A DNA stretch of 29,001 bases from a virus: IMG/VR virus record IMGVR_UViG_3300007735_000579, positions 1 through 29,001 of that record. The stretch is one strand, 5' to 3'. Made by a program: the position numbers and the translations under genes. The notes under the pieces were generated by a model. The model worked only from the letters and a program-made list of their open reading frames with translations. It did not search any database and had not been told where the DNA came from. The first letter of the stretch is position 1. Each line of letters starts with the position of its first letter. Below, in pieces: positions 2,867 through 11,247 of the stretch.

Positions 2867-3197
2867 GATCTTTCCCTCGCTTCTTCTTGCCGTCGGGGTC
2901 CTTGACCTGCGAGATCCGGACTTGTCCCCGCTCGGTCTTCCATCGTGCGACGAGGCCGTCCTTCGCCCGCATGAAGACGACCCGGACCGGGGTTGTATCC
3001 CCCAGGACCGGGGTCATGTCGGGCAGGTGCTCGAGGGCAACCGCGGCGATCGCCCCGGGGTCCTCTTCAACCATCCGATGGACCTTGTCGCTCATCTTGC
3101 CCTCGATCCCGAGGACAATGTCGCCTTCCGGGGTCTCGCCGATCGAGAACTTGCCACCCGCGGCCAGAATAGCCCGGAACGCCTCGAGGGGGGTCAC
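2859..3197 (-). CDS. Hypothetical protein with possible TubC-docking-like N-terminal fold
   Basis: 112 residues from a GTG at 3197 that forms a GTGA overlap with the preceding zinc-ribbon gene; a purine-rich GGGGGAGA lies just upstream. The N-terminal half (LEAFRAILAAGGKFS ... VLGIEG ... EEDPGAIAAVALEHL) has a helix, short hairpin, helix rhythm like the TubC N-terminal docking fold found in many phage and plasmid proteins. The C-terminus is very basic (DPDGKKKRGKDHG), as if it contacts nucleic acid. The fold likeness is by eye only and no enzymatic motif is seen. It sits between a zinc-ribbon protein and the terminase small subunit and overlaps the latter by 8 bases, so it is part of the same translationally coupled block. 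Confidence 0.6.
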   Translation of the reverse strand: MTPLEAFRAILAAGGKFSIGETPEGDIVLGIEGKMSDKVHRMVEEDPGAIAAVALEHLPDMTPVLGDTTPVRVVFMRAKDGLVARWKTERGQVRISQVKDPDGKKKRGKDHG

Positions 3198-3388
3198 TGT
3201 CTCCCCCGCTGCTCGATGCTGACCCACCGACGGCGCTCCTTCCGCAGTTCGGCACTTGCCCGACGGTCGAGGTCCATCCAATCGTCGAAGCATCTTCGAC
3301 AGAGCATCTCGCGATGGAGCTTGGTCCCGTCCGGGACAAGAGTTAGCGTAGCACACCCGGAGCACCGAATCTCGACGGGCTTAAGCAT
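3194..3388 (-). CDS. Small zinc-ribbon protein
   Basis: 64 residues starting at ATG 3388, overlapping the RusA-type gene by 8 bases and ending in a GTGA overlap with the next gene. Two cysteine pairs (CSGC at residues 8-11 and CRRC near residues 29-32) form a compact zinc ribbon. A charged, arginine-rich helix follows (DLDRRASAELRKERRRW) that could bind nucleic acid. No enzymatic motif is present. Small Cys4 proteins of this size are common in phage replication and recombination clusters and may be DNA- or RNA-binding adaptors. The Zn-ribbon call rests on the four visible cysteines; the role is unknown. Confidence 0.65.
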   Translation of the reverse strand: MLKPVEIRCSGCATLTLVPDGTKLHREMLCRRCFDDWMDLDRRASAELRKERRRWVSIEQRGRQ

Positions 3389-3764
3389 CGTCCGAGACCC
3401 GGATGACCGCCACCCATCGGGGGCTTGTCTTGGTCTTCGGCCTCTTCCGGACGACGAGGTCGATGACCTGTTCATCGTCAAACCACGCGATACCGTTGAG
3501 CGCGTCCATGACCCCTCCTGCGAGGTTGTCGACATCCCCCTTTCCCGTCCAGAACCATAGCTCCAGACTGAGTCTATCTTGACGCCAGACCGGGCAGGCA
3601 CTCAAGGCCAGAGCGACACGTCCGGCGATCTGCCGCTTCCAGGTCATATAATCCGCGGGCATGTAGATATGCCCGGTCTGGGTCGTCCGTGGCCTCGGCT
3701 TGACCCGGGCCGGGAATCCATCGGATCGGATCGTCAGGGTCCCGGCCTCGAGCACGACGCTCAA
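3381..3764 (-). CDS. rusA: RusA-family Holliday-junction resolvase with altered catalytic Lys
   Basis: 127 residues, close to the usual RusA length of about 120. RusA dimers cut four-way DNA junctions, here probably clearing branches before packaging. The signature acidic motif reads GDVDNLAGGVMDALNGI (about residues 76-92), followed by FDDEQV (95-100), matching the family pattern DxDN...DaLng...DDxqV. In E. coli RusA the second Asp is followed four residues later by a catalytic Lys; here that place is Gly83, so activity may be reduced or the active site rearranged. The start is taken as TTG 3764, which forms a TTGA overlap with the upstream gene, as elsewhere in this genome. The Shine-Dalgarno is weak, and GTG 3755 is an alternative. 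Confidence 0.85.
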   Translation of the reverse strand: MSVVLEAGTLTIRSDGFPARVKPRPRTTQTGHIYMPADYMTWKRQIAGRVALALSACPVWRQDRLSLELWFWTGKGDVDNLAGGVMDALNGIAWFDDEQVIDLVVRKRPKTKTSPRWVAVIRVSDDA

Positions 3765-4000
3765 GGGTTGTAAATCGTCTTGAGATCGTCGCTGAGCCTT
3801 TTTCCGCACCCCCGACACGTCGTCGGACCCCGCTTCGCGCTGACCTCGTGCAGGCCGCAGGCCGGGCAATGGTGATGAGGGATGGTCAGGAACTCGCCGC
3901 ACGCGAGGCATTGCCACGGGAACCCGTCGCCCTTCACCCGCATCCTTCGATTCTGAGGCCCCTGAGAGCCCCCAGAGCGGGACTTGACCGATCCACCCAT
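3761..4000 (-). CDS. Small double zinc-ribbon protein
   Basis: 79 residues from ATG 4000, with AGGGGG about 9 bases upstream. Three CxxC pairs are visible: CLAC (about 31-34), CPAC (45-48, preceded by three histidines) and CRGC near residue 62, so at least one full zinc ribbon and a half or shared second one are present. The N-terminus is basic and Gly/Ser-rich. No catalytic motif is seen. It ends in a TTGA overlap with the RusA-type gene, implying coupled translation and perhaps a shared role in DNA processing. Function is not recognised. Confidence 0.6.
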   Translation of the reverse strand: MGGSVKSRSGGSQGPQNRRMRVKGDGFPWQCLACGEFLTIPHHHCPACGLHEVSAKRGPTTCRGCGKRLSDDLKTIYNP

Positions 4001-4013
4001 CCCCTCGCACCCC

Positions 4014-4352
4014 CTAGCCCTCTTGCGTCGCTTCTAGGGGCTCGTAGCGCGTCCGGTTGGTCGTCCACCATCGGATGATGCCTTCCCGATTATCGCGGAG
4101 CCGGGTCAGGATGTCACCGGGGACCTCGAAGCCGGGTTCGACCGTCAAGGCGATCCCCCGATCTGGGTCCGACTCGAACCAGATCATCCCCGTCGCCCCG
4201 ATGTCCGCGAGGATCTCGGACACCGTCCGGTCCCTCGTCTCGCGATCCCATCCCTCGAGCTCACCTTCGCGGGTCCACTCGGAACACGGGACGAGGGTCC
4301 ATTCCGGTTCGACCTGGGGGGCCGACGCCTTCGATCCGGGCTTCTTTCTCAT
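4014..4352 (-). CDS. Hypothetical protein with possible TubC-docking-like domain
   Basis: 112 residues. The ATG at 4352 overlaps the previous stop as ATGA. The C-terminal half (TVSEILADIGATGMIWFE ... IALTVEPGFEVPGDI ... LRDNREGIIRWW) follows the pattern of the TubC N-terminal docking fold: a helix, a beta hairpin with a small acidic loop, then a helix with the characteristic L..LR..R..I...W spacing. This domain is common beside phage and plasmid primase genes, usually as an add-on. The N-terminus is basic (MRKKPGSK). No enzymatic residues are seen. The fold assignment is by eye and moderate; function is unknown. Confidence 0.6.
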   Translation of the reverse strand: MRKKPGSKASAPQVEPEWTLVPCSEWTREGELEGWDRETRDRTVSEILADIGATGMIWFESDPDRGIALTVEPGFEVPGDILTRLRDNREGIIRWWTTNRTRYEPLEATQEG

Positions 4353-4834
4353 AGCCCGTATTCCTCGATGATCTCGTTCTTGACGAGTCTCTTCGCAAGG
4401 GTCACGACTTCTTGCATCTCGCCAGTTACCTTGACCTCAAGCTTGTCGATGTATCTCAAGATCATCTTTTTGTTGATTGCATCGAACCCGGTTCCGGTTC
4501 TGCGGATGTCGTTTTGCTCGGCGTAGCTTTTCGCGTATTCGCGAATCGCGATGACATGAAGGTTGAACTCGTCGTCAATCTTGTCATCCCGCAGGAAGAC
4601 CATTCCGTTGTGAATGCGGAACAACGTTCCATCAAGGGCCTTCTCGATCGCGGCGTGCTTCTTCTTCTTGAGTTGCTCCTTGGCCTTGTAGATCTCATTC
4701 GACATTGCGAAGAGAGAATGGATTCTCGGCTTGCTTGCGACGTTCATCAGAATCCTAGCCGCGTCTGCCTCGTAGCCTCCGTTCTCGACAATCGCGAGAA
4801 CAACCTTGGCTAGCAACTCGTTTGACATTCTCAT
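4349..4834 (-). CDS. Lysine-rich hypothetical protein in a low-G+C island
   Basis: 161 residues from ATG 4834, chosen because AAGGAG lies 7 bases upstream; ATG 4828 and an upstream ATG at 4858 are less well placed. The protein is mostly helical and basic in the middle (KAKEQLKKKKHAA, about residues 50-62), with no recognised motif. Its base composition and codon choice (AAA, ATT, GTT, TTG) differ clearly from the G+C-rich neighbours. Together with its own candidate promoter upstream, this suggests a recently acquired accessory (moron-type) gene. It ends in an ATGA overlap with the next gene, so it has been integrated into the operon. Function is unknown. Confidence 0.65.
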   Translation of the reverse strand: MRMSNELLAKVVLAIVENGGYEADAARILMNVASKPRIHSLFAMSNEIYKAKEQLKKKKHAAIEKALDGTLFRIHNGMVFLRDDKIDDEFNLHVIAIREYAKSYAEQNDIRRTGTGFDAINKKMILRYIDKLEVKVTGEMQEVVTLAKRLVKNEIIEEYGL

Positions 4835-4975
4835 TCCGTTTCTCCTTTTCCTTATCATGTTTCGCTTTTCTTTTTTGTCAAGGCGTCCGGGGTGGTCCCC
4901 GGTCCCGGCCACAAGTTTCGGCCTTAGAACTACCCCTTTCCTATTTTTTCTCTCTCTCTCATTTTTTTCATGGGT

Positions 4976-5071: not shown

Positions 5072-7240
5072 TCATCGGACGATCCTCAGGCCCGGGAAGA
5101 CCCTCGGCCGAGACCCGCCGTTGTCCCTCGGCCTGGTCACGGTCCTGCGGAAGTGCCTCTCAAGCTCGGACTCGAAGGTCCGGGCCGCGAGGGGGTGGTA
5201 CCCGTTCGTCCCGCACCATGACCGATAGTCCTCATGAAGTTTCGCCGTCTCGACGGTGCCGAGGCCCGTGTCGTCGATCCGGTCATCGACCCATTGCAGG
5301 AACGGGTTGACGGCCTCGCGGTATCGCGCCTTGGTGTTGCTCATCTCGAGGGATTCGCCGATGCCGTGGGCCTTCAGAAGCTCGAGACCGTAGATCGCCC
5401 AGTTGAAGATCCCCGGTAGCTCGGCCCTGAGCTTGTCCAAGATGGAATAGTCCTTCTCTTCCTGCCGGATCTTGACGCCGAACGGGAAGATCAGAAGCCT
5501 CCGCCAGATCGCGTCCGTCCGGTCCGCGAACCGGGGTAGGACATTCGTCGAGAAGGTCAATCGGGCCGTCGGCCTCGCCTGATACGGGTCCTTGTGCTTC
5601 CTCTCGAAGGTCATTTCCTCGCCCGAGATAAGTTGCTTCAAGACGCCTTCCGCGGCCTTGTCGATCTCGCCCATCTCGTGCGCGATGTTCGCCGACTTTC
5701 CCACCATCGCCGCGAGGTCGAATCGTTCCCCGAACCGCTCGAGGGGTACCGTGGAATAGTTCCCCCGGCCGACGAGGTCCCCCAGTATCTCGAGGACGGT
5801 AGACTTGCCGTTCGACCCGTCGCCGACAAGGATCGCGGCGAGTTGATGCGAGATGTCGGGCACCATGTTGAGCCCGAACCATTGTTGAAGCCGCGTCCGC
5901 GTTTCCTCGTCCGGCATGATCTTCTCGAGGACCGACATCCAGAGCGGGCAGTCGGCCTCCGGATCGACCTCGAAGGGCAGGCAGACCGTGGCCAGAAGGT
6001 CCGGATCGTGGGGCTTGAGCCAGTCGTCCCGCTCGGCAAGGTACGCATCGACATCGACGATCCCGTTCCGGGCCACGATAGACAGGGGGCCGCCCCCGGA
6101 AGTCCACCCCCCGAGCTCTATTTCGTTCGGGATGCGAACTCGGGACGCGAGGTTCGCTACCACGTCACCTACGAATGCCCGTTTACACTTGCTGACCAGT
6201 TCCGGGGCCTGCTGCATCCTGGCCAAGACCAGATGCCCGACCTCCTCGTCCGTCGTCCGGTCATAGCATCGGCCGTTGAACTGAAACCAGAAGCCACGAT
6301 GCAGGACTAGGGGCTTGTCCTCGGTCGCCTCGATGTAGGCCCGGGCGATGTCGTCCGGCTGGATGCCCTTCTTCTCGTCGCCCTCGGGTTGCTCGACCTT
6401 GAGCCCGGATGCTAGCCCGACCTTGATCCGGCGTGCCGGGGTCCCGGCCGCGTACCCGTCGACGACCCGCTCGGCGATATCGACGAGGACCCGGTCCTCG
6501 AGCGGGGGGACGACCGCGGTCTCATTCGTCGCCCGCAGGCTTGCCAAGATCGCCTCATACCCGAGGCCCTGCGCCCGCAGGGACGACGCGATCTTGAAGA
6601 CCGCCTCGTTCCGGCCACCCTCGCGGATCAGGCCGTCGGCATCCGTCCGAGTCTGGGGAGCCTGAGCCCGGGGCCGCGATGCCTGCTTCAAGGCCTCGTC
6701 GAGCCACCCGGGGACGGGTTGCGGTTCATCCTGGCTCTCGGTGTCGACCGCGTACATGCGGCCGTTCCGATGAATGGAGCCCGGGGCCACGACGAAGCCC
6801 CGTTCCCCGCGGACATCGACCCCCGGGGCGAGTGCGCCTGCCGAGTTCCGGACGTCCCACCCCGGATGCCGATAGTAGACGTGCGCCCCGCGCCCGGTCC
6901 TGACCATGAAGAACGGGGCATCCTGGTTCCGCTCCTCGAACCAGACGACCGCGTCCTCGTTGTCGAGATCCAGTAGCAGGAGCCCGGTCTCGGCACCGGT
7001 CACAATGCCCGCGTTCCGGCCGTCCCTGAACCATCGCTCGACGGCCGAGGCCGGATGCTGCGCTCCTGGGGCCTGCCAGCCGCGGTCGATCGGATGCTTG
7101 CCCTGCGAGTCGCAGGTCTCGCGGCCGCAGGTACAGGTCCCGTCCTTCTTGACGTGATGCACCGCGATGAAGACACGGCCGAGCCCGGCGACGGACTCAA
7201 GCTCTCTCAAACGGGATTCGATGGGGTACAATTGCAACAT
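5072..7240 (-). CDS. Prim-Pol primase / D5-type SF3 helicase
   Basis: 722-residue replication protein that joins an N-terminal primase-polymerase to a C-terminal helicase. The N-terminus has a small Cys cluster (C36, C38, C43) followed by GKHP and the Prim-Pol metal motif LLLLDLDN (about 87-94), then GRGAHVYYRH and GVDVRGERGFVVAPGS. A D5-N type linker follows. The C-terminal ATPase has Walker A GDGSNGKST (473-481), Walker B-like IAHEMGEID (about 519-527), and the SF3/D5 segment FERKHKDPYQARPTARLTFSTN (546-566, split for description) ending in WRRLLIFPF. It should prime and unwind phage DNA. At ATG 7240 the AGAGAGG directly touches the start codon, so a TTG at codon 4 is also possible. It begins a new unit after a strong hairpin. 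Confidence 0.93.
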   Translation of the reverse strand: MLQLYPIESRLRELESVAGLGRVFIAVHHVKKDGTCTCGRETCDSQGKHPIDRGWQAPGAQHPASAVERWFRDGRNAGIVTGAETGLLLLDLDNEDAVVWFEERNQDAPFFMVRTGRGAHVYYRHPGWDVRNSAGALAPGVDVRGERGFVVAPGSIHRNGRMYAVDTESQDEPQPVPGWLDEALKQASRPRAQAPQTRTDADGLIREGGRNEAVFKIASSLRAQGLGYEAILASLRATNETAVVPPLEDRVLVDIAERVVDGYAAGTPARRIKVGLASGLKVEQPEGDEKKGIQPDDIARAYIEATEDKPLVLHRGFWFQFNGRCYDRTTDEEVGHLVLARMQQAPELVSKCKRAFVGDVVANLASRVRIPNEIELGGWTSGGGPLSIVARNGIVDVDAYLAERDDWLKPHDPDLLATVCLPFEVDPEADCPLWMSVLEKIMPDEETRTRLQQWFGLNMVPDISHQLAAILVGDGSNGKSTVLEILGDLVGRGNYSTVPLERFGERFDLAAMVGKSANIAHEMGEIDKAAEGVLKQLISGEEMTFERKHKDPYQARPTARLTFSTNVLPRFADRTDAIWRRLLIFPFGVKIRQEEKDYSILDKLRAELPGIFNWAIYGLELLKAHGIGESLEMSNTKARYREAVNPFLQWVDDRIDDTGLGTVETAKLHEDYRSWCGTNGYHPLAARTFESELERHFRRTVTRPRDNGGSRPRVFPGLRIVR

Positions 7241-7320: not shown

Positions 7321-7734
7321 CTAGAACGGGATCTTCTGCGCGGCCTTCTTCGCCGACAGGTCAGGCAAGACGGCCTCGACCTTGGTCCTCGCGGTACCGT
7401 TGGCCGACACCTTCTCCTTGACCTCGACGAAGCAGGACAGCCCGACGAGACCCGCGATGTCCGGGTCCCCGTCCGCGTCGACGCCGTCCCATGCCTTGTT
7501 GCCGTTCAGGCTCTTGGCCCACGCAAAGGCCTTGGACTTCTCGCTCCACGCCTGCGAGGTCGAGCCGCTGACCATATCACCCTCGTGATCGCCGTCCGTG
7601 ATCCGGAAGACCCATTCGACGATGTCCGTCGGTCCTTCGGCCGTCGTGATCGTCTTCGCGTCGAGGTTGTGGAGGATCGCTTGATACGTGCCCGGGCTGA
7701 CCTGGGCGAACGTCGTGGTCCGCTTCATCTTCAT
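7321..7734 (-). CDS. Phage ssDNA-binding-type protein (OB-fold, DUF669-like)
   Basis: 137 residues, the usual size for phage single-stranded DNA-binding proteins. The layout GTYQAILHNLDAK, then VEWVFRITDGDHEGDMV, then a helix TSQAWSEKSKAFAWAKSL, then LSCFVEVKEKVSANG resembles the DUF669-like phage SSB pattern: strands around one helix, with conserved eG and Gly-x-x-C positions. It would coat single-stranded DNA during replication or recombination. ATG 7734 has AAAGG 11 bases upstream; ATG 7728 is an alternative. It lies between the nuclease-HIRAN gene and the primase-helicase, a typical place for an SSB. The family call is by eye. Confidence 0.7.
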   Translation of the reverse strand: MKMKRTTTFAQVSPGTYQAILHNLDAKTITTAEGPTDIVEWVFRITDGDHEGDMVSGSTSQAWSEKSKAFAWAKSLNGNKAWDGVDADGDPDIAGLVGLSCFVEVKEKVSANGTARTKVEAVLPDLSAKKAAQKIPF

Positions 7735-7754: not shown

Positions 7755-8804
7755 TTAGAGGTCGGAGCCGTGAAGCTCGATCTCGATGTTGAGTCCGTGG
7801 TTCTTGCCGGGACCACCCCCGGTAACCTCGGTCACTCGTGCGGAGGCTGTTCCGCCTGCCGCCAAGTGATCCGAGACTATCTCTGCCGTCGGGCTTCCCG
7901 TCGCCGGGAGGAACCCGATATGAGCACCCTCGAGCAGGACCTTGACCGCCTGGGCCGTCCCGTCGACCCTGCGGGGGCCGTGCGGGTTGTCCTTGTCCCA
8001 CTCAAGCTCGAGCGGGTACCCGGCCTCGCAGGTCGTCCAGTCCGGGCCACCATTCCGGAACGTGGTCCCGACGACCTTCGTGTTGATATGCCGGAACCGC
8101 TGTCCACCGTCCTGCCGCGCCTGTTCGACGAGGGCCTTGTTGCATGCCTGCTTGACCTCGCACCATCGGCACTCGGCAACCTGCTCATACCGCGGAAGCG
8201 TCCCGTCCTTGACGTGCTCCTTGATGACCTCGGCCCGGATGTCCATCTTGCGAGCAACCGCAGGATCGACCTCGAGCGGAAGGACCTGGTAGGTCGGGTC
8301 CAGTTCCCCGGACTTCGGCTTGAGCCCGGCCGGGATAGTGCCGTTCTTGTTGATGTAGACGATCGCCGCGGCCTTGCAACCCGCCTGTACCGCGTACCAC
8401 GTCACCTGTCCGATATGCTCGGGCTTCGGGCCGCTCTTGAAGACCTCTACGTACCCTTCGACGTTGATGGTCTTGAGATCCATCAAGATCCCGTCCTCGA
8501 CGAGTCGCAAGTCCGAATGACCTGTCATCGAGCCCGAATCCCACGTCTCCTCCGCGGGGACCTCGGGCAGGTTGCCCTGGACGATCTCATGGGTCTTCGT
8601 CCCGACCTCGAAGGCGAGGGCGAGCTTCCGGGGAAGCTGGATGACCTCTTGCGGGTCGAGCCGGGCCGCGAGGACCTGGGCCCGGGCGCAACGGTGGATA
8701 CCCGAGGGACGGACCTTCCACTCGCCCCGGGCACGTTGCCCGAGGCGGTCGAGTGCGAGGTCCATCATGGCCTGGACCTTGTTGATGATCTCGTCCCCGT
8801 TCAT
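7755..8804 (-). CDS. Cas4/RecB-like Fe-S nuclease fused to a HIRAN domain
   Basis: 349 residues in two parts. Residues about 1-230 form a PD-(D/E)XK nuclease: HRCARAQVLA (Cys39), GTKTHEIV (His72), GHSDLRL (Asp98), LMDLKT (Asp109, Lys111), the QxxxY motif GQVTWYAVQ (Gln133, Tyr137) and CRWCEVKQAC (Cys212, 215, 221). One N-terminal and three C-terminal cysteines are the iron-sulphur signature of Cas4 and AddB-type nucleases. Residues about 242-346 match the HIRAN domain: VVGTTF, GYPLELEWDKDNPHGPRRV, HIGFLPA, then a strand-rich end. HIRAN domains (as in HLTF/Rad5) bind 3-prime ssDNA ends. The fusion suggests an exonuclease steered to DNA ends for recombination or replication restart. The start ATG 8804 overlaps the previous stop as ATGA. 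Both domains are clear by eye. Confidence 0.88.
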   Translation of the reverse strand: MNGDEIINKVQAMMDLALDRLGQRARGEWKVRPSGIHRCARAQVLAARLDPQEVIQLPRKLALAFEVGTKTHEIVQGNLPEVPAEETWDSGSMTGHSDLRLVEDGILMDLKTINVEGYVEVFKSGPKPEHIGQVTWYAVQAGCKAAAIVYINKNGTIPAGLKPKSGELDPTYQVLPLEVDPAVARKMDIRAEVIKEHVKDGTLPRYEQVAECRWCEVKQACNKALVEQARQDGGQRFRHINTKVVGTTFRNGGPDWTTCEAGYPLELEWDKDNPHGPRRVDGTAQAVKVLLEGAHIGFLPATGSPTAEIVSDHLAAGGTASARVTEVTGGGPGKNHGLNIEIELHGSDL

Positions 8805-9157
8805 GCTACTTCCTCCGCGTCGCACTCGATGTCCAGTTCGTTGATTAGGAATGCGACGGCCTCGGCGTAGGTGTCGTGCCACTCGCCCAGTCGGGTAGCG
8901 GTCACCGCAACGTTGTTTCCGATAAAGATCCCGTTCTGGTAGGTCAGGGTCACGGCCCCGACGGTGACCTCGGCCATGCCCGCGGGGTCCTCGATGATGA
9001 CCTCGTCCCGACGGCATGACGACAGGATCGACCAGTTGTCCGAGGTCGGGGTGACGCTCGAGACCTGGAGCTGGACCAAGTCCTCGACAACCGTCACCGC
9101 AAGGGCCACCCGGAACAAGGGGAACTCGCCCGCGGTCTGCTTGATGAAATTAACCAC
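8801..9157 (-). CDS. Hypothetical beta-rich protein
   Basis: 118 residues starting at GTG 9157, with GAAGGAGG about 10 bases upstream inside a small hairpin. The gene overlaps its upstream neighbour by 8 bases and ends in an ATGA overlap with the nuclease-HIRAN gene. The sequence alternates hydrophobic strands (FRVALAVTVVEDLVQLQV, AEVTVGAVTLTYQNGIFIG) and ends with a helix, WHDTYAEAVAFLINELD, then an acidic tail. No family recognised. Its tight coupling to the nuclease gene suggests a partner or regulator of that enzyme, but this is context only. Confidence 0.6.
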   Translation of the reverse strand: MVNFIKQTAGEFPLFRVALAVTVVEDLVQLQVSSVTPTSDNWSILSSCRRDEVIIEDPAGMAEVTVGAVTLTYQNGIFIGNNVAVTATRLGEWHDTYAEAVAFLINELDIECDAEEVA

Positions 9158-9906: not shown

Positions 9907-9936
9907 AATGTACTACGGGGAACATGTCCCCGTCAA
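9907..9936 (-). promoter_or_regulatory. Promoter with embedded operator palindrome
   Basis: On the minus strand TTGACG (9936-9931) and TACATT (9912-9907) are separated by 18 bases. The spacer is filled by an inverted repeat, ACGGGGA (9915-9921) and TCCCCGT (9927-9933), with a 5-base centre ACATG. Outer arms GTACT (9910-9914) and AGTAC (9936-9940) extend the symmetry with a 2-base offset. The -35 box overlaps the stop of the upstream zinc-knuckle gene. A repressor dimer at this site would block RNA polymerase. Part of the palindrome could also act as a terminator for the upstream gene. Confidence 0.55.
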
Positions 9937-10595
9937 GTACCTTCTAGAAAGTTTTTCGGGAAGGCCGCGTCATAGGCCATTCGCCAGAGCAAGAGCTTGC
10001 CGAGGACGTAGGTGATCTCGTTCTTGTTGACGCGGTTCCGTTGCCGAGCCCGCGAGCATGGGTTGCATTGCGGATGGACGGCCCCCGTCCGGACGTTGAC
10101 GTAGAACAACTCCGCGGGCAGGGTCTCGAGACAGGCATTGCACTTGTGCATGGGGTCCTCGAGATGCCGCAGACGAGGCCGCCCGCCCTTCTTGAGTCGT
10201 GGTCTCGAGTCGGCAACCTTCGCCGCTTCGATCCGCGCCCGAGCCGCGATCAACCTGGCCTGCTCCTTCGCGGTCCGGATGTCTTCGGCCGTCGGCCCCT
10301 CCAAGGGGACCGGGACGGGGTCCCGGGGCTTCCGCCCGGCCTTCTTCTTTTCCTCTTTCTTGCGGGCCTCCTTGGCCCTGCGATCGGCCTCGAGGAAGCA
10401 CGGCTTGCAAGTCGCCATGACCGACCCATCCGTCCGCTTGTAGAAGTCGGCCAGGGGCCGGACGACGTGGCACCGCGAACAGATCTTGTCCTTGGTGATA
10501 GCCGACCGGGCCCGGATGCACCCCTCGCAGAGACCGCCCACAAGGGCCGAGAAGAGCCGCGCACAGACGTTACAGGACTCAAGACCTCGCGGCAT
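9933..10595 (-). CDS. Three-zinc-knuckle protein with duplicated ribbon and GRP motifs
   Basis: 220 residues from ATG 10595 (AGGAAGG 9 bases upstream; a GTG at 10631 would be less well spaced). Three Cys4 sites: C8/C11-C23/C26, C39/C42-C63/C66 and C152/C155-C177/C180. The second and third are clearly duplicated: CSRCHVVRPLADFY...CKPC and CNACLETLPAELFY...CNPC. This ribbon type also accompanies endonuclease VII-like proteins, but no HNH or other nuclease residues are seen. Between them lies a charged helix (RRAKEARKKEEKKK) and two basic GRP-type sequences (AGRKPRD, GGRPRLR) like AT-hook cores. It is likely a DNA- or RNA-binding protein, perhaps a late or middle regulator. The gene ends at the operator palindrome. 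Confidence 0.75.
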   Translation of the reverse strand: MPRGLESCNVCARLFSALVGGLCEGCIRARSAITKDKICSRCHVVRPLADFYKRTDGSVMATCKPCFLEADRRAKEARKKEEKKKAGRKPRDPVPVPLEGPTAEDIRTAKEQARLIAARARIEAAKVADSRPRLKKGGRPRLRHLEDPMHKCNACLETLPAELFYVNVRTGAVHPQCNPCSRARQRNRVNKNEITYVLGKLLLWRMAYDAAFPKNFLEGT

Positions 10596-11247
10596 CGGAA
10601 CCCGCCTTCCTGAGCCCCTCGAGGCGGTCACGATGGACGACGGGAGCGATGACCGCTTGCCCGCGCCAACGGGAGTCCGGTTCGGTCTGCTGGTTCGGTG
10701 ATTGCATCATCACCCGCACGACCCCGGACTCGTGGATCTCGAGTTGCACCCCGTGCGCGGTCATGCCGAAGGAGTGGTCGATCGCGGTCATAAGGTACCC
10801 CCCGTTAACCGCGGTTGTCGCGGCCCCCCAGCAAGGGGCCTCGATCCGCATCATCCCGACCCGCAGGAACCCTCCCCCGATCTCGATCTCGACGGTCTTG
10901 TCCTTGCCGCCGTGGATCTGGGCGAGCCTGCGTCGCTCCTGGATGTCGGCGAGGGCCGCACGAATCAGGGGCGAGACATCCCGCCCGGGGGCGATGGTCA
11001 CCGCCTGAGCCCGGCTGACCTCGGCCTCGTGGGGGGTCTCGGGATGCCCGAGGGTCTTGTCGAGGATGTCCATCGGGACCTGGCCCTCGTGGTCCTTGCC
11101 CCATAGCTTGACGGCGAATGCCGCCCCCCGGTCCGGGGACCAGAGGAACCCGAGGTCCCGGTCCTTGTCGATCAGGATCTCGACCGCGTCTAGGGCCTGA
11201 GCCGCCCGGTAGAGATCCTGTACCGCCTGTGGTTTGAGCTTGATCAT
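10579..11247 (-). CDS. Possible sliding-clamp-like protein
   Basis: 222 residues. ATG 11247 overlaps the previous stop as ATGA. The pattern VEIEIGGGFLRVGMMRIEAP, then VNGGYLMTAIDHSFG, then VQLEIHESGVVRVMMQ, then AVIAPVV is like the beta-strand/helix/beta-strand order of a DNA-polymerase clamp domain, where N-x-x-YL begins the helix. Size is near one-and-a-half clamp domains, similar to T4-type phage clamps. The N-terminal half (VEILIDKDRDLGFLWSPDRG) could form the matching domain. The methyltransferase C-terminus QLRLF is a clamp-binding pattern, which fits. This is a tentative call from sequence appearance; an unrelated beta-rich protein is possible. Confidence 0.6.
   Translation of the reverse strand: MIKLKPQAVQDLYRAAQALDAVEILIDKDRDLGFLWSPDRGAAFAVKLWGKDHEGQVPMDILDKTLGHPETPHEAEVSRAQAVTIAPGRDVSPLIRAALADIQERRRLAQIHGGKDKTVEIEIGGGFLRVGMMRIEAPCWGAATTAVNGGYLMTAIDHSFGMTAHGVQLEIHESGVVRVMMQSPNQQTEPDSRWRGQAVIAPVVHRDRLEGLRKAGSDAARS

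Follow-up and report, generated by a model that had tools for sequence, protein, structure and literature searches.

A conserved gene joining a Cas4-like nuclease to a divergent HIRAN-related domain among the replication genes of uncultivated phages

Whether a phage can carry a Cas4/RecB-type nuclease and a HIRAN domain in one polypeptide, and what such an enzyme might do, is the question raised by a single open reading frame in IMG/VR record IMGVR_UViG_3300007735_000579, a complete record of 29,001 bases without an exact terminal repeat, which was analysed at its full length and is called the window here. An earlier note on this DNA had read the frame as a Cas4-like nuclease fused to a C-terminal HIRAN domain, had taken the pairing to be undescribed in phages, and had named two findings that would overturn this reading, namely the lack of a HIRAN domain and a frameshift or assembly error joining two genes. 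Both were looked for, and neither was found.

The fusion gene, its relatives and its neighbours

The position of the gene (7755–8804), its single frame encoding 349 aa, the numbering of its key residues (C39, D98, D109, K111, Q133, Y137, C212, C215, and C221), and its motifs VVGTTF, DNPHGPRR, and HIGFLP were all exact in the earlier note, which left the minus strand unstated (Table 1). The start of the fusion gene overlaps the end of the upstream 118-aa frame by 4 bases; in one relative (L003), an in-frame stop lies just 5′ of the fusion start, which supports ATG 8804 as the start codon.

A search for homologous fusions, as called for in the earlier note, recovered the same fusion in six other IMG/VR contigs by protein and alignment scans (L002–L007; five distinct sequences, two being identical here), with proteins 70–97% identical to that of the window. 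The frame is full length in L003–L007, internal stops are absent from all complete relatives, and the copy in L002 is stop-free up to the contig end that cuts it; a frameshift or an assembly join of two genes is thus ruled out. Both halves of the protein are under purifying selection (dN/dS of 0.08–0.32 in the nuclease half and 0.08–0.36 in the HIRAN half, with the lower value in the HIRAN half in most pairs), and the HIRAN half is the better conserved of the two (82–97% identity to the window protein). In most pairs, dS was also lower in the HIRAN-coding part (7764–8090) than in the nuclease-coding part (0.51 versus 1.20 for the pair L004 and L007), which suggests either an extra constraint at the nucleotide level or recombination.

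The fusion gene is real and is conserved in a family of uncultivated phages, where it is found among DNA-replication genes; L003, L004, L006, and L007 share the order fusion, SSB-like protein, primase-helicase, RusA. An SSB-type gene and a primase-helicase gene directly follow the fusion, as the earlier note had claimed, the SSB-like assignment being sub-threshold (DUF669 E = 0.015 in the window and 0.01–0.02 in four orthologues, below the Pfam cut-off; E = 0.04 with PHROG 378, SSB). In phage HK620, a DUF669 protein reportedly behaves as an SSB in vitro (PMC5928155). A start of the SSB-like gene of the window further upstream, inside the HIRAN region, is unlikely, since in L006 the added stretch and the SSB gene are in different frames. 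The primase-helicase also matched PHROG 1156 (DNA primase; E = 2e-88), and the 118-aa protein encoded upstream of the fusion matched neither Pfam nor PHROG.

Other parts of the window showed features of their own. The endonuclease VII-like protein encoded at 9933–10631 was matched along two stretches, which points to a tandem domain duplication. The gene at 4349–4912 was matched in one relative only (L003, 34% identity), with its flanking genes conserved, and may be an exchanged cassette lying between the primase-helicase gene and the RusA gene. A DNA methyltransferase gene adjoins that of the terminase small subunit (1263–2672 and 2507–2866), and head genes start at the opposite end of the record (from 28980 downward); no large terminase was seen in the record, which may therefore be an incomplete genome.

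Table 1. Positions in the window of the fusion gene, its parts and its neighbouring genes.
Feature	Position	Strand	Extent	Basis or remark
Cas4-like nuclease-HIRAN fusion gene	7755..8804	(-)	349 aa	ATG 8804-8802, stop 7757-7755
Cas4/RecB-type PD-(D/E)XK nuclease domain	8109..8744	(-)	residues ~21-232	PHROG, invariant residues, Foldseek
HIRAN-related domain	7764..8090	(-)	residues ~239-347	Pfam sub-threshold, hhalign 93%, phage-HIRAN HMM, Foldseek
Family-specific insertion GPRRVDG	7959..7979	(-)	residues 276-282	immediately after NPH; alignment with HLTF and 74 phage HIRANs
SSB-like protein, DUF669-type	7321..7734	(-)	137 aa	directly downstream of the fusion
Prim-pol/D5-like primase-helicase	5072..7240	(-)	722 aa	Prim-Pol E 1.5e-23, DUF5906 E 4e-22
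RusA-type Holliday junction resolvase	3381..4010	(-)		RusA E 2.4e-14; same replication/recombination block
Protein with no assigned function	8801..9157	(-)	118 aa	directly upstream of the fusion; conserved in L002, L003, L006

The two halves of the protein

The nuclease half matched PHROG 1706 (“CRISPR/Cas system associated”; E = 9e-19) and PHROG 1990 (“Cas4-domain exonuclease”; E = 1.5e-10), and Pfam PDDEXK_1 gave a sub-threshold score (15 bits) in relatives. The six catalytic residues (H72, D98, D109, K111, Q133, and Y137) and the four cysteines C39, C212, C215, and C221 (C...CX2CX5C) are invariant in the six aligned fusion sequences. These residues and the PHROG matches bear out the Cas4/RecB-type nuclease with all key residues that had been proposed. 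Foldseek searches with a low-confidence AF2 model of the nuclease half alone (mean pLDDT 56) gave LHK-Exo (E = 1.7e-3, probability 1.00), Cas4 SSO0001, lambda exonuclease, and RecE as the best PDB neighbours; the lambda exonuclease/RecE class of fold thus heads the matches, yet at E values of 1.7e-3 and weaker. SSO0001 is a 5′→3′ ssDNA exonuclease with an Fe-S cluster held by four cysteines and has been proposed to make 3′ overhangs (PMC3466216). By analogy, the fusion nuclease probably carries an Fe-S cluster, and we infer the same 5′→3′ polarity for it.

In the C-terminal half, Pfam PF08797 gave 16 bits (E = 0.011) on the window protein, short of the gathering cut-off of 24.7 bits, and had no match at E ≤ 1 in the relatives; Pfam alone would therefore leave a HIRAN domain undecided. 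The homology was settled by three other lines of evidence. Profile-profile comparison with phage HIRANs (hhalign) reached a score of 43 (93%), as compared to a mean of 11.3 ± 2.4 and a maximum of 27.5 for shuffles (n = 300). An HMM built from ~75 other viral HIRANs matched all six fusion sequences (34–45 bits; E = 5e-9 to 1e-12, with 2.8e-12 on the HIRAN-related domain of the window), the best non-HIRAN among 2,706 ORFs and reversed ORFs having E = 0.5. Foldseek with the full-length AF2 model, again of low confidence (mean pLDDT 57), returned the HIRAN protein 3k2y as the top PDB match (E = 6e-5, probability 1.00), with Rad5 (6l8o) lower in the list (E = 0.019, probability 1.00). The shuffle control and the independent HMM rule out a chance Pfam match, and the C-terminal HIRAN domain of the earlier note is confirmed as a homologue, with a Pfam score below the cut-off.

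The signature N-x-[YFH]-D, with its invariant Asp, is absent from the fusion family. The position of HLTF D94, a residue that helps bind the 3′-OH in HLTF, is occupied by Asp in all 74 aligned phage HIRANs and by Gly in all five fusion-family sequences, and a seven-residue insertion, GPRRxDG, lies beside the replaced Asp, where other HIRANs read NP[YFH]D. Because of this replacement and the insertion, we file the C-terminal part as a divergent HIRAN-related domain, akin to the HIRAN of human HLTF, which grips DNA ends. D281 of the insertion might take over the role of the signature Asp. The counterpart of HLTF Asn91 is kept (N273), as is an aromatic residue at the position of Y72 (F249); the Y93 position holds H275 (His also in 18 of the 74 other phage HIRANs), and the position of K113, a Lys/Arg site, holds Ala (also in 21 of the 74). 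In HLTF, Y72 and Y93 bracket the bound dinucleotide (PMC4666394). Rad5 of K. lactis binds ssDNA with just two of the ten HLTF ssDNA-binding residues retained (PMC7804152); ssDNA binding by the fusion HIRAN may thus survive and is, by this analogy, plausible. Specificity for a 3′-OH cannot be assumed from the sequence, and the loss of the signature Asp speaks against it. The Cas4-like/HIRAN architecture and the replication setting of the earlier note are supported; a DNA-end sensor plus processor is plausible, with the reading of 3′ ends weakened by Gly at the D94 position and the seven-residue insertion.

Candidate roles of the fusion protein

The nearest isolate relative in our first search, the nuclease of Nitratiruptor phage NrS-3, matches PHROG 434 (“RecE-like recombination exonuclease”; E = 8e-30) and its gene is immediately followed by those for an annealing protein of the RecT family and an SSB. 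Taken together, this RecT context, the PHROG matches, the conserved residues, the structural neighbours, and the activity of SSO0001 favour a recombination exonuclease. We consider it somewhat probable that the fusion is an exonuclease of the Cas4/RecE/lambda-exonuclease kind serving phage replication or recombination, probably containing an Fe-S cluster, and that its divergent HIRAN domain binds DNA ends or ssDNA near the active site. Under such a scheme, the nuclease would degrade the 5′ strand of phage DNA ends that arise in replication or by breakage, the HIRAN domain would keep the enzyme there or on the 3′ strand so exposed, the product of the neighbouring SSB-like gene would coat the single strand, and the primase-helicase and the RusA resolvase would finish recombination-dependent replication. 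The main gap in the exonuclease reading is a recombinase partner, as Pfam and PHROG scans recognised no single-strand annealing protein in the window; it is possible that one hides among the window ORFs without assigned function.

A more specific form of the exonuclease reading, in which the Cas4-like domain resects the 5′ strand and a HIRAN domain with its GPRRxDG loop keeps hold of the opposite 3′ end, is put forward tentatively. If true, it would make the fusion protein the first enzyme of the Cas4-HIRAN type, and its HIRAN the first in prokaryotes to be given a defined part in resecting DNA ends, with a reshaped pocket standing in for the invariant Asp. Prokaryotic HIRAN domains have been stated to be uncharacterised (PMC11090510); a small phage HIRAN-nuclease offers a direct, testable read-out of how such a domain affects DNA-end processing, and the altered signature motif provides a natural experiment on the HIRAN residues needed to recognise DNA ends.

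The pocket changes would also fit a HIRAN domain that has become a docking module for the SSB-like protein, the primase-helicase, or the host replisome, placing the exonuclease at phage forks, a reading that we regard as possible but doubtful. The signature Asp is gone, a basic loop (GPRR) is inserted, and the K113 position is Ala; the HIRAN half is the better conserved one, both in identity and, mostly, in dN/dS versus the window, as would be the case for an interaction surface; and in some members of its family the Rad5 HIRAN helps PCNA binding/ubiquitination (PMC7804152). On the other hand, N273, the aromatic F249, H275, and the overall fold are retained, and the His and Ala substitutions recur in other phage HIRANs at the frequencies given above.

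That the fusion is a structure-specific flap or fork endonuclease, guided by HIRAN to stalled forks like the eukaryotic HIRAN-bearing VRR-NUC proteins, is improbable. Eukaryotic HIRAN does occur with a VRR-NUC nuclease (PMC7762302), and a Thermococcus Cas4 is reported to process branched DNA (PMC12538437), but the nearest relatives of the fusion nuclease in both sequence and fold are exonucleases, and the phage already encodes a RusA resolvase and the endonuclease VII-like gene.

Identity with a CRISPR-associated Cas4 (CAS-Cas4) is ruled out by the replication context and by the absence of cas genes among those scanned. A Cas4 turned against host CRISPR immunity by capturing host-derived spacers, as proposed for Campylobacter phages (PMC4283603, discussed in PMC5704561), is highly unlikely, given that the gene lies within a replication block, that neither cas1 nor cas2 was found among the window genes scanned, and that HIRAN has no known role in such a process. 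A nuclease for host-DNA degradation, defence, or counter-defence, with HIRAN sensing damaged DNA, would fit the many viral HIRAN genes that lie beside repressors and integrases or are themselves HipN-type antitoxins, but is very improbable in view of the strict synteny with the SSB-like and primase-helicase genes in the relatives.

Distribution and comparison with known systems

No Cas4-HIRAN fusion was found in isolate phages (INPHARED, 50,697 records, protein search), the listed tblastn matches being nuclease-only or HIRAN-only. A plasmid search gave one match, to the nuclease part alone; short peptide patterns recovered no relatives from bacterial genome contigs; and further scans of viral contigs returned the same contigs only. 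Foldseek matches covering both domains came from some BFVD entries (e.g., H9C0I7, 288 columns, rmsd 24 Å); these were compared at the level of structure, and an undetected fusion in a known virus may be among them. Our literature search found neither a single Cas4-HIRAN protein nor biochemistry of the fusion family; the texts that name both domains concern Stenotrophomonas phages and, where consulted, describe separate genes. The view that the pairing was undescribed in phages thus stands for Cas4 in the literature searched, but joining HIRAN to a nuclease is not new as such, HIRAN with VRR-NUC being known in eukaryotes (PMC7762302).

The 80 other viral HIRAN loci that we compared are mostly stand-alone (~95–150 aa), and a census of their neighbours revealed no general link to exonucleases, the neighbours being mostly repressors and integrases, with a few DNA ligases; this counts against the exonuclease reading. 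One of these loci (L068, IMGVR_UViG_3300012949_000486) encodes a second, unrelated nuclease-HIRAN fusion, a 431-aa protein with a T7 endonuclease I/DUF790-type nuclease (residues ~214–319; DUF790 E = 1.4e-9, PHROG endonuclease E = 8e-13) and a C-terminal HIRAN (residues 343–408, matched at 3001–3174; E = 2.5e-13). Like the window protein, it is a viral nuclease with a C-terminal HIRAN, from which it differs in its nuclease subfamily and its canonical NKYD motif. Other arrangements were also seen. A 350-aa protein of IMGVR_UViG_3300013307_000024 (L070) has a HIRAN and a C-terminal BRCT domain, and the HIRAN locus of L080 is HipN-like, with L111 looking alike by sequence. In Staphylococcus phage SauPS-28 (L112:931-1785), a 285-aa protein annotated as a “restriction endonuclease” ends in a HIRAN (E = 3e-11), with no Pfam match in its N-terminal part; its gene adjoins repressor and MazF-like genes near an integrase and is possibly an accessory or defence gene.

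Phage Cas4-/RecE-like exonucleases (PHROG 1706, 1990, and 434; e.g., those of NrS-3 and Sulfitobacter phage M39) share with the fusion the PD-(D/E)XK motifs and a replication/recombination setting. The isolate relatives examined, however, are without HIRAN, and NrS-3 has an adjacent RecT partner where none was recognised in the window. LHK-Exo, lambda exonuclease, and RecE come closest to the nuclease model in structure; they are without HIRAN and are not known to carry the four-Cys motif. With Cas4 SSO0001 and MGE-Cas4, the fusion has in common the RecB-type motifs and the four-cysteine cluster, while it differs in not lying beside cas1/cas2 and in its extra HIRAN domain.

The HIRANs of HLTF, Rad5, L. 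plantarum lp_0118, and the stand-alone phage proteins share the fold and the VVG...NPx...AVKV...IGFLP core with the fusion, which keeps N273 and F249 but differs from them in Gly for the signature Asp, in the seven-residue insertion, and in its score below the Pfam cut-off. A HIRAN fused to a nuclease of the restriction-endonuclease fold was reportedly described by Iyer et al. in 2006. In bacteria, HIRAN is found beside or fused to HipA-type kinases/antitoxins (PMC8262856). Among Bradleyvirinae phages (DLP4 and relatives), the DLP4 genome has both a Cas4-type nuclease and a HIRAN (PMC6469090), but as separate genes ~15 kb apart, the nuclease being of the PHROG 69/DUF2800 type. A bacterial or phage origin of the eukaryotic HIRAN has been proposed (PMC7762302, citing Iyer 2006). 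The eukaryotic HIRAN-VRR-NUC proteins likewise combine HIRAN with a nuclease of the PD-(D/E)XK superfamily in a single chain (PMC7762302); their nuclease family differs from that of the fusion, in which Pfam gave no VRR-NUC match. Given these eukaryotic proteins and L068, the joining of HIRAN to a nuclease appears as a repeated theme, of which the Cas4-type version is new.
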